From Mesorhizobium shangrilense (GTDB lineage Bacteria; Pseudomonadota; Alphaproteobacteria; Rhizobiales; Rhizobiaceae), in assembly GCF_028826155.1 (NCBI RefSeq), contig NZ_JAQGPN010000001.1, positions 4,527,501 through 4,591,500 on the forward strand: DNA of 64,000 nt, given 5' to 3'. A program made the position numbers and the translations under genes. Positions within the stretch are counted from its first letter, which is position 1; each line of letters starts with the position of its first letter. Under the pieces are notes generated by a model. It was not told the DNA's origin and did not search any database. It saw only the letters and a list, made by a program, of their open reading frames with translations. This document shows, piece after piece, positions 17,891 to 22,528 of this stretch.

Positions 17891-18982
17891 CTAACCGGCC
17901 GGCATCGTCCCGACATAGGCCGCGGCAGGCCTGAGCAGACGGCCATTCTTCTGCTGTTCAAGCGCATGCGCGGTCCATCCGGCTGCGCGGGCGGCGGCGA
18001 AGATCGGCGTGAAGGCCTGGCGCGGGATGCCGAGAGCATCGAGCAGGATGGCGGTGTAGAACTCGACATTGGTATCCAGAGCCCGGTCTGGCTTGGCCCT
18101 GGCGAGCGCCTGGCGCGCATAGGCCTCCACCTCGGCCGCGAGGCCGAGCTCCGCCTCGCTCCTGCCGAGCAGACCGACCGCATGCTTCAGCACGTCCGCC
18201 CGGGGGTCGCGGACGCGGTAGACACGGTGGCCGAAGCCCATCAGCCGCTCGCCGCGGACAAGGGCGGCGTCGATCCATGGCGCGATGTTCTCGCGCCTGC
18301 CGATGGCATCGAGCATCTCCAGCACAGGCTCGGGCGCGCCGCCGTGCAGCGGCCCGGTAAGCGCACAGTAGCCTGCGGTGACCGCCATGAAGAGGCCGGC
18401 ACCTGTCGAGGCGACGACGCGGGCGGCGAAGGTGGAGGCGTTCATGCTGTGGTCGGAGACGGTGACGAGATAGGTATCGAGCGCCTTGGCTTCTGCGTCC
18501 GAAGGCGCGACGCCCCGGATCATGCGCAGGGTATCGGCGGCGTGCGGGAGGTCCGCGGAGGGCGCAACCGGCTGTTCGCCCTGCCGGGCGCGGACGAGTG
18601 CCGCCGCAATGACCGGCATGGCCCCGACGATAGCGGCTTCGGGCGGAAGGTCCGGATCCGGCTGCAATGCCGCGACGGCAGCACGGAAAGCGGCGACGAT
18701 CGGCATGCCTTCGGTGACGGCAAGCATGGCGGGCAGGCGGTCGAAGGCGCGCAGGCGCGCGGTCGCCAAGGCCGCGCCGACCGACGTGGCGTCGCGCTGC
18801 TGCGCGTCGGCAAGCGACCAAAGGCGTGCGGCGACCTCCTCGAAGCCGGCTTCCAGGGCCAGCCGCTCCACCGCCTCACCGGCGATGACCAGCACACCGC
18901 GCTCGCCGTCGATATGCGACAGGCGCGTCTCGGCCGCGGCGACGCCGTCGAGACCGATCAGGGACTTGGGGTGGTGTGTCAT
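17891..18982 (-). CDS. Citrate synthase family protein (short type)
   Basis: A 363-residue member of the citrate/2-methylcitrate synthase family, which condenses acetyl- or propionyl-CoA with oxaloacetate. The two catalytic His motifs are present (PLHGGAPEP and GFGHRVYRVRDPRAD). The catalytic Asp of the family (NVDFYSG in GltA) is Glu here, in NVEFYTA, so activity is uncertain. The ATG at 18982 has a GGAGAAAG ribosome-binding site; the frame is open further upstream but without a start supported by one. It is divergent from a second citrate synthase homologue carrying a DNA-binding domain, with a long inverted repeat between them. The housekeeping gltA is probably elsewhere. Confidence 0.85.
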   Translation of the reverse strand: MTHHPKSLIGLDGVAAAETRLSHIDGERGVLVIAGEAVERLALEAGFEEVAARLWSLADAQQRDATSVGAALATARLRAFDRLPAMLAVTEGMPIVAAFRAAVAALQPDPDLPPEAAIVGAMPVIAAALVRARQGEQPVAPSADLPHAADTLRMIRGVAPSDAEAKALDTYLVTVSDHSMNASTFAARVVASTGAGLFMAVTAGYCALTGPLHGGAPEPVLEMLDAIGRRENIAPWIDAALVRGERLMGFGHRVYRVRDPRADVLKHAVGLLGRSEAELGLAAEVEAYARQALARAKPDRALDTNVEFYTAILLDALGIPRQAFTPIFAAARAAGWTAHALEQQKNGRLLRPAAAYVGTMPAG

Positions 18983-19020
18983 TGTCTTTCTCCATGTCTT
19001 TCCCCGCAAGATCATGGCTC

Positions 19021-19063
19021 TTTTCATATTGATCAATCTTGATTAGCTTGATCAATATGAAAA
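19021..19063. promoter_or_regulatory. Long perfect inverted repeat between divergent citrate synthase genes
   Basis: Arms of 16 bases, TTTTCATATTGATCAA (19021-19036) and its exact reverse complement (19048-19063), surround an 11-base spacer. Each arm ends in the palindrome TTGATCAA, and the spacer holds a third TTGAT, so TTGAT occurs three times at 9-10 base steps (19029, 19039, 19048), about one helical turn apart. The right arm covers the ATG of the HTH-citrate synthase gene at 19057. The geometry is that of a cooperative operator controlling both divergent genes; the obvious candidate regulator is the HTH-citrate synthase itself. Confidence 0.8.
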
Positions 19064-20274
19064 ATCCCCGCGATCCGCTCTATCTCACTGCCCGCCAGGC
19101 GGCCGGCGAGCTGTCGGTCTCGCCTGCAACGCTCTACGCCTATGTCAGCCGCGGCCTGATCCGCTCGGAGCCTGCCGAGTCCTCGCGCGAGCGGCGCTAT
19201 CGAGCAGAAGACGTGCGGGCGCTGAAGGGCCGACGCAGCATGCCGGCCGCACAGCGCAGCGACGTCGAGCAGCAGGCGATCGAAACCGCCGTCAGCACCA
19301 TCGACGATGGCGGACAGATCTATCGCGGCGTGCGGGCCGTCCCCCTGGCAGCCGAGGCAAGCCTCGAACAGGCGGCGACGCTCCTGTGGGATGTCAGCGG
19401 CATCGATCCCTTCGAGCCTGGCAACCTGCCGGTGATGGACCAGGCCATGCGCGCGGTGATGGATGCCTGCGCGCAGGCGGATCCGCTGCCGCGCGCTATT
19501 GCCACGCTGGCATTGGCGACCAGCGCCGACGGCCAGGCCTTCAACCGCTCGGCGGAAGGCCGGGCGCGCATCGGCGCGCGCATTGTCAGGCTGGTCACGA
19601 CGGCAATCCTCGGCACACCGGCGTCGGCCGATCCCGTCCATGTCCAGATCGCGCGGCAGTGGGCCGAAGGAGAGCGGCAGGCCGAAAGCCTGATCCGAAG
19701 GGCGCTGGTGCTGCTCGCCGACCATGAGTTCAATCCATCGACCTACACGTTGCGCTGCGCCGTCTCGACAGGGCTCTCGCTCTATGACGCGACCGTCGCA
19801 GGGCTCGTGGCGCTCAAGGGGCCGAAGCACGGCGGCGCCGCCCTGCTGGCGGCGCAGTTCGTCGGCGTCCTTGCGGTTGCGGAGGGTGACCTGGAGCAGG
19901 TCGTGCGCACGCATGTGACGCTCGGCGAGCAGATCCCGGGCTTTGGGCACAAGGTCTACCGCTCCAGCGACCCGCGCGCCGACGACCTGCTTGCCGCGCT
20001 GGTCCGCGCGGGCGCCGATCGGAGGCTTGCCGTCGAGGCGCCAGCCCTGATTTCGGACGCCACCGGGCTGTTCCCCAACATCGACTACGCCCTTGCCGTA
20101 ATGGCGCGCACGCTCGGCCTCCCCCCGGGCGCGGAGATTGCCCTGTTTGCGATCGCACGCACCGCGGGCTGGATTGCCCATGGCGCGGAGCAACTGGCGA
20201 GCGGGAAGCTCATCCGGCCTGCGGCGCGCTATGTTGGGCTGCATGCGGGGCGGACCGGCCGCCATCCCGAATGA
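19057..20274 (+). CDS. Citrate synthase homologue with N-terminal MerR/excisionase-like HTH
   Basis: A 405-residue fusion. Residues about 6-55 form a MerR/HTH_17-type helix-turn-helix (YLTARQAAGELSVSPATLYA followed by RRYRAEDVRALKGR). Residues about 75-400 form a citrate synthase domain with all three catalytic positions: GPKHGGAALL, PGFGHKVYRSSDPRAD and NIDYALAVMART (Asp retained). It could be a metabolite-sensing regulator that keeps the enzyme fold, or a bifunctional protein. The ATG at 19057 lies inside the right arm of the inverted repeat shared with the divergent paralogue, which implies autoregulation. I know of the same fusion in other proteobacterial annotations but of no characterised function. 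Confidence 0.88.
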   Translation: MKNPRDPLYLTARQAAGELSVSPATLYAYVSRGLIRSEPAESSRERRYRAEDVRALKGRRSMPAAQRSDVEQQAIETAVSTIDDGGQIYRGVRAVPLAAEASLEQAATLLWDVSGIDPFEPGNLPVMDQAMRAVMDACAQADPLPRAIATLALATSADGQAFNRSAEGRARIGARIVRLVTTAILGTPASADPVHVQIARQWAEGERQAESLIRRALVLLADHEFNPSTYTLRCAVSTGLSLYDATVAGLVALKGPKHGGAALLAAQFVGVLAVAEGDLEQVVRTHVTLGEQIPGFGHKVYRSSDPRADDLLAALVRAGADRRLAVEAPALISDATGLFPNIDYALAVMARTLGLPPGAEIALFAIARTAGWIAHGAEQLASGKLIRPAARYVGLHAGRTGRHPE

Positions 20275-20384: not shown

Positions 20385-21074
20385 ATGCGGCTCGGCGAGC
20401 ATCATCTGGCGGCGGTCGCCAAGACCATCGCCGATCCCGGTCCGCACGTCTTCGTGGGCCGAACGCCCGCAACCGATGCGGACTACGAACGCGTGGTGGC
20501 CGAGATCCAGGCAGGCGCCCCGCCGGGTCCATTGTGGCTGTTCGCCTATGGGTCGCTGATCTGGAACCCCGAGTTCGAACACGACGAAGCCCGCATCGCG
20601 CGAGCGCGCGGCTGGCGACGCACCTTCTGCCTCGGCTGGGACTACCGGTTCCGCGGCAGCGTCGAGCGGCCCGGGCTGATGATGGCGCTTGATCGCGGCG
20701 GCCAGTGCACAGGAGTTGTCTACCGACTGCCGGAGGCCACGCGGAAGGCGAACCTCGACAGGCTGATCCGGCGCGAGATGAGTATGGTGCCCACCGCGTT
20801 TCCACCACGCTGGATCAAGGTGGAGACCGAAGACGGTCCGGTCCGCGCGCTGACATTCGTCATGGACCGCAACAGCGGCCGCTACCAGAACCTGGCTGAC
20901 GACGCAGTCGCCGACGTGCTTGCGAAGGCCTGCGGGTTCCGCGGCTCGATGGCGCAATACCTTCACGCCACCGTGTTGAATCTCGAGGCCATGGGCATCC
21001 ACGACCGCCATCTGTGGCGCATGCAGGAACTCGTCGCAGAGCGCATCGCGCGCGAACACAGCCTGCAGGATTAA
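20385..21074 (+). CDS. chaC: Gamma-glutamylcyclotransferase, ChaC type
   Basis: ChaC-type enzymes cleave glutathione to 5-oxoproline and Cys-Gly. The diagnostic substrate loop is WLFAYGSLIWNPEFEHDE, followed by ARARGWRRTFCLGWDYRFRG and GVVYRLPEA. The catalytic Glu of the fold is probably in the RREMSM segment. I chose the ATG at 20385 (229 aa) because ACGGAG precedes it at good spacing. In-frame ATGs at 20328 and 20271 would add 19 or 38 residues; the one at 20271 overlaps the stop of the preceding HTH-citrate synthase gene (ATGA), so coupling to that gene is possible. Confidence 0.88.
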   Translation: MRLGEHHLAAVAKTIADPGPHVFVGRTPATDADYERVVAEIQAGAPPGPLWLFAYGSLIWNPEFEHDEARIARARGWRRTFCLGWDYRFRGSVERPGLMMALDRGGQCTGVVYRLPEATRKANLDRLIRREMSMVPTAFPPRWIKVETEDGPVRALTFVMDRNSGRYQNLADDAVADVLAKACGFRGSMAQYLHATVLNLEAMGIHDRHLWRMQELVAERIAREHSLQD

Positions 21075-21118: not shown

Positions 21119-22528
21119 TTATGGAATGGCGTAGACCTGGAACTCGCGCTCGATGCCGCGCAGCATCGCCGCGTGAACCTCGGGCTCCAGCGCCTTGCCG
21201 CGCAACAGCTCGGCCGTCCTGGCGTCGTCCACCACCGCCGCGGTGACGAAGATCGACTGCGAGTCAGCCAGGCCCTGCACGCGCGAGGCTATGTTGACGG
21301 TCTGGCCGAAATAGTCCTGCCGCTCGTTCATGGCCACCGCGATGCAGGGTCCCTCGTGGACGCCGATCTTCAGGAGCAGATCCTCGCTTCCGTTCTCCGC
21401 ATTCAGCCGCCGCATCGCCTCGCGCATGCGCAACGCCGCGGCGACGGCGCGGTCCGGCGTCGGGAAGGTCGCCATCACCGCGTCGCCGATCGTCTTCACG
21501 ACCGCGCCGGCCTCGGCTGCGACGATCTGGTTGAGCACGCGGAAATGCGCCTGCACGAGGTCGAACGCGACAAGGTCCCCTACCCGCTCGTAGAGCTCGG
21601 TCGAGCCGCGCAGGTCGGTGAAAAGGAAGGTCAGGCTGGTGATCTTGAGCCGCTGGTCGAGATCCAGCGTGTTGGTCCGGTAGAGATCGCGAAAGGTCTG
21701 GTTGGTGAGCAGGCGCTTGGCGGTCAGGAACGGCCGCCGGCTGCCCAGCATGTGGTGCAGCGCTTCGCCGGCGATGCAGATGCTGGGCAGCGCCCGACGG
21801 TCGGTCCGGTTCTCCAGCACCAGCCGGAGCGGGCCCGGCCGCATTTCGATGGTCTGGTTGTGCGTGTGCTCGCGGTCGAAGCTGAGCGACAGGGCCTGCC
21901 GCTCCCTGGTCGGCTCGCCCTTGACGTCCAGGAATTGCGCCGAATGCGTCACCGGCTCGAAGACGATGATGAACTCGGCCGGAAGCTGGAGGGACAGCAC
22001 CGCCTTCTCGCCCGGCTCGAGCTCCACGTGATCGATGGTGAACTCATCGAAGAGCGCATCGTAGGACTCGTCGGGCACGTCGATGCCGGAACCCCAGTAC
22101 ATCTGTCGGTAGTATTCACCGAGCGGCAGCTCGTCCGGCATGTGGGCGGCGATCCTGCGCACGCGGTGACTGACGGTGAAAGTCACCTCCACCAGCTCGT
22201 CAAGCGTCGGCCTGTAGGTATCGGCGCAAAGCGCGCAGACGTATTCGTCCTTGCGGATCGTGCTCAGCGAGGCATTGGTGTCGAGCACGCCGCCGCAGCC
22301 GGGGCACAGCACGTTCCAGGAAATGTCGAACATGCCGATGCGCGCGGCATGCAGGAAGGCCGCGACCGACGCCTCCTCGTCAAGGCCGTTGCGCTCCGCA
22401 AAGGCGAGGACGTTGATACGCGAGAGTTGGTGGTCCTTGCCATGCTCGACGAGGTCCTTGATCGCGTCGACTACGGCCGGCTCGACAAACTGCCGCAGCA
22501 AAACCAACATGTCGCCGGCTTCGCTCAT
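21119..22528 (-). CDS. Class III adenylate/guanylate cyclase with DUF5939-like N-terminus
   Basis: A 469-residue soluble protein. The C-terminal class III cyclase domain (about 290-440) keeps the metal-binding Asp residues in FLFTDLRGSTELYERVG and KTIGDAVMATF and the transition-state NxxxR in FGQTVNIASRVQ, so it should be active. The N-terminal 280 residues resemble DUF5939 and carry a zinc-ribbon-like pair of motifs, CPGC and CALC, about 25 residues apart. No membrane segment or phosphoacceptor domain is seen, so the signal it senses is unknown. It converges with chaC and has its own upstream region. Confidence 0.92.
   Translation of the reverse strand: MSEAGDMLVLLRQFVEPAVVDAIKDLVEHGKDHQLSRINVLAFAERNGLDEEASVAAFLHAARIGMFDISWNVLCPGCGGVLDTNASLSTIRKDEYVCALCADTYRPTLDELVEVTFTVSHRVRRIAAHMPDELPLGEYYRQMYWGSGIDVPDESYDALFDEFTIDHVELEPGEKAVLSLQLPAEFIIVFEPVTHSAQFLDVKGEPTRERQALSLSFDREHTHNQTIEMRPGPLRLVLENRTDRRALPSICIAGEALHHMLGSRRPFLTAKRLLTNQTFRDLYRTNTLDLDQRLKITSLTFLFTDLRGSTELYERVGDLVAFDLVQAHFRVLNQIVAAEAGAVVKTIGDAVMATFPTPDRAVAAALRMREAMRRLNAENGSEDLLLKIGVHEGPCIAVAMNERQDYFGQTVNIASRVQGLADSQSIFVTAAVVDDARTAELLRGKALEPEVHAAMLRGIEREFQVYAIP

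Follow-up and report, generated by a model that had tools for sequence, protein, structure and literature searches.

We analysed a 64,000-nt stretch of the Mesorhizobium shangrilense genome (contig NZ_JAQGPN010000001.1, positions 4,527,501 to 4,591,500; hereafter the window), which carries a gene for a citrate synthase with an N-terminal helix-turn-helix (HTH) domain (HTH-CS) and, divergent from it, a second citrate synthase gene (the partner). Sequence comparison indicates that HTH-CS is likely an enzyme-derived one-component transcriptional regulator, whose citrate synthase pocket senses oxaloacetate and acyl-coenzyme A (acyl-CoA) or (methyl)citrate. It very probably recognizes a dedicated DNA operator, and its pocket is probably the sensor. 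HTH-CS, a widespread bacterial protein, looks like a gene switch because its gene is accompanied in distant bacteria by a near-identical short DNA site, which adjoins citrate-making or propionate-degrading genes. The basis is comparative throughout: the protein's architecture, a conserved site that co-occurs with HTH-CS and persists across different targets, the overlap of that site with a predicted −35 box, and an intact pocket.

A conserved putative operator core upstream of HTH-CS

The features of the locus are listed by their positions in the window.
17891–18982, minus strand: partner citrate synthase gene (363 aa; type II, NF009005/PRK12350, B. subtilis CitA-like by domain and structure matches), divergent from HTH-CS, ATG at 18980–18982
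18990–18993, minus strand: Shine-Dalgarno-like GGAG, 7 nt ahead of the partner ATG (by eye)
19008–19013, minus strand: predicted −10 hexamer GATCTT of the partner promoter, with a 17-nt spacer to the −35 (spacer count over sites)
19031–19036, minus strand: predicted −35 hexamer TTGATC of the partner promoter, which is the operator's outer half-site (spacer count over sites)
19021–19036, plus strand: left arm of a perfect 16-nt palindrome, a length private to near relatives
19033–19056, plus strand: conserved operator core TCAATCTTGATTAGCTTGATCAAT with three half-sites (comparison of loci)
19048–19063, plus strand: right arm of the palindrome, including the HTH-CS start codon
19057–20274, plus strand: HTH-CS gene (405 aa; fusion of HTH and citrate synthase, proposed one-component regulator), ATG at 19057–19059 (open reading frame list, domain searches)
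19081–19227, plus strand: winged HTH domain, residues 9–57 (domain search, model, fold comparison)
19129–19155, plus strand: recognition helix TLYAYVSRG, residues 25–33 (alignment, model)
19273–20223, plus strand: citrate synthase domain, residues 73–389, with H223, H258, H298, R307, D343, R368 and R387 (domain search, alignment, model)

The original prediction, made from the sequence of this region, described a perfect inverted repeat with 16-base arms between the two genes, three TTGAT words at 9–10 base steps and a right arm covering the start codon of the HTH gene. All of these elements are present. The arms are separated by 11 nt, and allowing one mismatch extends them to 19 nt around a 5-nt loop; the TTGAT words start at 19029, 19039 and 19048, 10 and then 9 nt apart. 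The HTH-CS ATG lies within the right arm and directly abuts the core, and no Shine-Dalgarno sequence was seen by eye ahead of it.

We rejected the long palindrome as the conserved element. Among 37 loci, L013 alone comes near it (15-nt arms), and three relatives have arms of 9–11 nt. The upstream regions of these 37 loci instead yielded a 24-bp consensus with three half-sites, RTCAAT-M-TTGAT-N7-ATCAA (first form: TCAAT-[C/A]-TTGAT-N7-ATCAA). The original prediction was to fall if orthologues lacked the repeat upstream; the long palindrome does not withstand this check, but the core does. The proposal of an enzyme-derived regulator with a site between both genes finds support in the comparative evidence, with this core and not the 16-nt-arm palindrome as the operator. 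The genome containing the window has one single core match at ≤2 mismatches; there is no second site at this threshold to suggest a regulon elsewhere in it.

The fusion profile (E≤1e-60) detected HTH-CS in 21 of 101 genomes of the window's family. The core was present at 0–1 mismatch in 20 of the 101, all of which were among the 21 with HTH-CS, and in none of the 80 genomes without it (Fisher 3e-20, kinship not corrected). It abuts the HTH-CS gene in 19 of the 20 genomes. The exception, G012, has a 1-mismatch site away from HTH-CS and a weaker local site at its own HTH-CS gene. In G016, the remaining HTH-CS genome, the site at the gene has 2 mismatches. Searching with the DNA motif alone led to six HTH-CS genes that were below the first protein cut-off. 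We also searched for a core variant whose gap was shortened by one base and in which a further letter was fixed (≤2 mismatches). It occurred in 14 of the 101 genomes, not at all in the window's own genome and in none of the 13 HTH-CS genomes first known. Two of the 21, G012 and G016, are among these 14, and their matches lie on contigs other than that of the gene.

Beyond the family, 24 of 240 genomes from the class contained a match to the fusion (E≤1e-40; L039 matches without the HTH part), and a profile search detected it in 50 of 398 from the phylum (E≤1e-80). Family, class and phylum finds were combined with 12 plasmid loci hand-picked from two sets of 51 and 76 records; after exclusion of L001, L007, L039 (no HTH part) and duplicates, 102 loci remained. 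Gaps of ±1 base were allowed once a shorter gap had been noted in two Deinococcus plasmids and a Polyangia metagenome-assembled genome (MAG). The core was found at ≤1 mismatch upstream of HTH-CS in 88 of the 102 loci, compared with 0 of 505 dinucleotide shuffles. This comprises 39 of the 44 loci already identified by the time the consensus was set (the motif itself had turned up six) and 49 of the 58 fetched afterwards, 46 with the original gap; the 58 include near-copies.

The recognition helix TLYAYVSRG occurs in 71 proteins, 65 of which have a core at ≤1 mismatch. None of the three proteins with AYVGRK in place of AYVSRG has one. The other core-less loci include a clade adjoining cation-efflux genes and L004 (an Anaerolineae MAG). 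L098 and L147, both without a local core, each have two sites at 0–1 mismatch at the remote promoter of a gene cluster ending in HTH-CS.

In both L098 (1096-1284) and L168 (5496-5688), two operator copies in opposite orientation occupy a divergent promoter between a 2-hydroxyacid dehydrogenase gene and an MFS-containing cluster ending in HTH-CS. The dehydrogenase of L098 is annotated as D-glycerate dehydrogenase.

Genes facing the core

The original prediction asked whether a citrate synthase gene always accompanies the fusion, which is not the case. A divergent citrate synthase was found in just 64 of the 102 loci (63 window-type partners and one GltA-like protein, L031), and 26 of the 38 HTH-CS genes without one retain the core at ≤1 mismatch. 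Other genes facing the core encode PrpB-like proteins, AcnD, family III CoA-transferases, HMGL-like synthases, a TctC receptor, 2-hydroxyacid dehydrogenases, DUF2332 proteins and methyltransferases. As judged from these loci, the core goes with HTH-CS and not with the partner, and it persists when the target changes. A quick synthase-domain tree, many of whose forks are weak, requires no fewer than 15 changes of target label and 8 of core presence.

At L165, a full methylcitrate operon (prpB-prpC-acnD-prpF, each above an NCBIfam cut-off) lies behind the core. An out-of-sample set of 79 genomes from one family (Xanthomonadaceae-type; nearest named relatives Stenotrophomonas, Luteimonas, Pseudoxanthomonas and Xanthomonas) contained HTH-CS in 14 genomes, 11 of them new. 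In all 14, HTH-CS and prpB diverge around a 0-mismatch core, and prpC was seen behind prpB in 12. A citrate synthase as sensor would suit many of the targets, which have tricarboxylate, 2-substituted malate or acyl-CoA chemistry in common.

On the two Deinococcus plasmids (L095 and L104), HTH-CS is divergent from an HMGL-like synthase gene and the operator gap is one base shorter. The best NCBIfam match of the L095 synthase is homocitrate synthase, below cut-off. At L166 (G012), HTH-CS adjoins a CoA-transferase III gene, with a CitE-like HpcH/HpaI protein encoded close by.

Domains and active sites of HTH-CS and its partner

The anticipated pairing of two divergent citrate synthases, one with an N-terminal MerR/HTH_17-type domain, was recovered by domain searches. 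The HTH-CS N-terminus matched PF13411 MerR_1 above cut-off (23.7 vs 21.6) and PF12728 HTH_17 slightly below it (26.3 vs 27), and PF00285 (citrate synthase) matched both HTH-CS (4.6e-56) and the partner (3.8e-99). For the window protein, the search returned HTH families and PF00285 only, with no sigma-54 activator domain. An HTH-only profile gave no match among PDB sequences. By fold comparison, the HTH is close to Xis, BldC and SoxR, and the closest folds to the citrate synthase part are PrpC and other citrate synthases, tied. In the model, a helix (residues 50–61) and a low-confidence stretch (65–71) lead into the synthase fold, and there is no MerR-type coiled coil.

The two active-site histidines and the aspartate are kept in HTH-CS (H258, H298, D343), as the original prediction stated, and so are the other four of seven active-site residues. 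We take these seven positions, aligned through the GltA of the same genome, to be H229, H264, H305, R314, D362, R387 and R407 of E. coli GltA. They are all intact in 84 of the 89 HTH-CS proteins with a site (≤2 mismatches, start-based scan). Among 13 proteins counted as site-less in that scan they are intact in seven, of which L098, L147 and L149 have sites in later scans; the other six have lost some. The position of GltA K310, presumably the basic residue on the CoA side, is occupied by R302 in the window protein and by Thr in PrpC. Identity to the window protein ranged from 33 to 62% over 34 aligned HTH-CS proteins. Relatives without a site and with decayed pockets (L096, L152–L155) adjoin porin, MipA or cation-efflux genes.

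The partner scored above the NF009005/PRK12350 cut-off, and its best PDB match was 2c6x_A, 'citrate synthase 1' of B. subtilis. All 63 partner proteins in the alignment have Glu at the position of the catalytic Asp (Glu307 in the window). So does B. subtilis CitA (2c6x), whereas HTH-CS, GltA and PrpC keep Asp. The departure from the canonical active site is thus the partner's and not that of HTH-CS, and on this alignment the partner proteins are a natural D-to-E citrate synthase family. HTH-CS and the partner form two separate deep clades, each with support 99 (quick tree, 53 rows), and we rejected the idea that HTH-CS is a recent copy of the partner on these grounds. Within the window's family, the partner occurs in 18 of 101 genomes, always adjoining an HTH-CS.

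The outer half-site as a predicted −35 box

In the direction of the divergent gene, the sequence of the outer half-site is TTGAY. A hexamer with A at position 2 and T at position 6 lies exactly 17 nt from it in 36 of 78 deduplicated sites, compared with 0–12 at other spacers between 8 and 39. We predict that the outer half-site is the −35 box of the divergent promoter. Since the operator covers this −35 box and reaches upstream of it, both repression and activation are possible.

Proposed mechanism and alternative explanations

In our proposal, a regulator would have arisen by fusion of a winged HTH of the MerR/excisionase type with an entire citrate synthase. Its dimer, held together by the citrate synthase fold, may set two HTHs on the core (19033–19056). 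Bound HTH-CS would lie across its own gene start, limiting its own synthesis, and would control the divergent gene, whose −35 box is predicted to be the outer half-site. Oxaloacetate together with acyl-CoA, or the product citrate or 2-methylcitrate, would then close the synthase domain and alter DNA binding; the original prediction had put forward acetyl-CoA, propionyl-CoA or oxaloacetate as candidates. Expression of the divergent gene would thereby be tied to the presence of its substrate or product: here that of the second, CitA-like synthase gene, and in the sampled Xanthomonadaceae-type genomes that of prpB. Because the site covers the −35 box but reaches upstream of it, we slightly favour release of repression over ligand-dependent activation.

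A number of observations weigh against this interpretation. Fourteen of the 102 loci have no local core at ≤1 mismatch, and the core-less L029 and L030 still face a partner gene. The sample itself includes near-copies, the 12 hand-picked plasmid loci and the six motif-found ones, and 37 of its loci were used for the consensus. Specificity is gone at 2 mismatches, where 40 of 101 family genomes match. A strict sigma-70 promoter scan found none in the window, and a −35-like hexamer for HTH-CS itself appears in 12 of 68 sequences at the best offset, so that a clear HTH-CS promoter was not established. The DUF2332, MFS and methyltransferase neighbours lack an obvious chemical fit. Finally, the residue at the GltA K310 position is K or R in just 12 of the 89 HTH-CS proteins with a site, which makes an acyl-CoA ligand less sure than oxaloacetate or citrate.

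As a more specific form of the regulator hypothesis, we tentatively suggest that the sensor is an intact and possibly working citrate synthase. Closure of the enzyme around oxaloacetate and acyl-CoA (or methylcitrate) would be coupled to the DNA-binding head, and the cell would gauge how much acetyl- or propionyl-CoA enters the citrate or methylcitrate cycle by carrying out, or beginning, the reaction itself. A trigger enzyme would overlap with the proposed mechanism: HTH-CS might also catalyse (methyl)citrate synthesis or citryl-CoA cleavage, with DNA binding that reports turnover and not ligand level. The intact pockets of nearly all site-bearing proteins, set against the losses in six of the 13 site-less ones, and the closeness of the fold to PrpC and other citrate synthases are in line with such activity. 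The CoA-side base is mostly absent, however, and CitC of Caulobacter crescentus, probably an HTH-CS protein (see below) and encoded beside the functional CitB, failed to complement an E. coli gltA mutant (PMC7083601). We consider a trigger enzyme rather unlikely.

We regard it as improbable that the sensor is a mixed dimer of HTH-CS and the partner, by which the partner or its free pool would be sensed. Citrate synthases are known to dimerize, and the partner always lies beside an HTH-CS in the window's family. However, the two proteins belong to separate deep clades, and the core is retained by most of the 38 HTH-CS genes that have no divergent citrate synthase. The chance that the citrate synthase part is a pseudo-enzyme, serving as a dimerization scaffold with no sensing, appears small as well: site-less members with decayed pockets do exist, but the pocket is intact in 84 of 89 site-bearing proteins, and the 34 aligned HTH-CS proteins are 33–62% identical to the window protein. 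That the core belongs to another factor or is a mere promoter or leader element, with the HTH serving otherwise, is very improbable: the outer half-site doubles as a −35 box and one 0–1-mismatch site (in G012) lies away from its HTH-CS, but no such site occurs in the 80 family genomes without HTH-CS, the three AYVGRK proteins all lack the core, and two genomes each carry two sites at a remote cluster promoter.

Relation to known systems

Among the matches listed in the open-access literature (titles and abstract openings), we found no study of an HTH-citrate synthase fusion and no description of a citrate synthase as sensor; enzymes turned regulators are a known kind, as in GabR and BzdR. HTH-CS resembles these regulators in combining a DNA-binding domain with a complete enzyme fold and, by comparative genomics, in having its own operator beside its gene and target. 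Like the MocR/GabR proteins, as far as the listed sources describe them, it would be a local regulator whose ligand is expected in the enzyme pocket. The MocR/GabR type, in contrast, joins a GntR-family winged HTH to a pyridoxal phosphate-type aminotransferase fold, and HTH-CS a MerR/Xis-type HTH to a citrate synthase. In BzdR, the DNA-binding part is fused to a shikimate-kinase-like domain. BzdR, likewise an enzyme turned regulator (PMC3602430), differs in its domains.

HTH-CS shares the N-terminal winged HTH (PF13411) with the MerR family but lacks, in the model, the long dimerization coiled coil after the HTH. MerR operators sit inside the 19–20 bp spacer between the −35 and −10 of the target. 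Unlike these, the HTH-CS site is not inside a long spacer; its outer half is the predicted −35 box and the spacer is 17 nt.

In B. subtilis, the LysR-type regulator CitR is encoded divergently from citA. The arrangement is similar in that a regulator gene points away from the gene of a CitA-like synthase, in which Glu takes the place of the catalytic Asp (2c6x), but the proposed regulator HTH-CS is itself a citrate synthase.

Suvorova et al. (2012) reportedly described new regulators of propionate genes, and that work may already predict the Xanthomonadaceae-type case. Xanthomonas citri PrpR binds GTTGCAA-N2-TTGCAAC (PMC12153269, in excerpt), and its gene lies upstream of prpB with the site in the prpB promoter. 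The likeness ends there: PrpR is of the sigma-54 type, whereas HTH-CS has an HTH and PF00285 only, and the PrpR operator is unlike the core. We therefore rejected X. citri PrpR as the same protein as HTH-CS.

Consecutive citrate synthase loci are also found in C. crescentus, where citB and citC (CCNA_03757/03758) adjoin each other and CitB, but not CitC, replaces E. coli GltA (Berge et al. 2020, PMC7083601, in excerpt). This is probably the same pair as in the window, with CitC corresponding to HTH-CS. The main text of that paper does not contain the term 'helix-turn-helix', its excerpted passages name neither an operator nor any regulation by CitC, and the moonlighting protein described there is CitA. 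If CitC is a member, a role as regulator offers a possible reason for its failure as a citrate synthase.

HTH-CS proteins are mostly annotated as 'citrate synthase' or 'citrate synthase family protein' among the names shown, except for P0085 ('MerR family transcriptional regulator') and P0339 ('helix-turn-helix domain-containing protein'). These names may conceal a family of regulators of the citrate and methylcitrate cycles, and one enzyme too many may be counted in a genome as a result. From the 24-bp operator, the target to expect in each genome can be predicted, and HTH-CS provides a case for asking how the domain closure of an enzyme became gene control.

Neighbouring genes

A ChaC-like gene lies immediately downstream of HTH-CS (20385–21074), with an ATG at 20271 that overlaps the HTH-CS stop codon. 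On the minus strand, positions 21119–22528 encode a protein with DUF5939 and an adenylate/guanylate cyclase domain.

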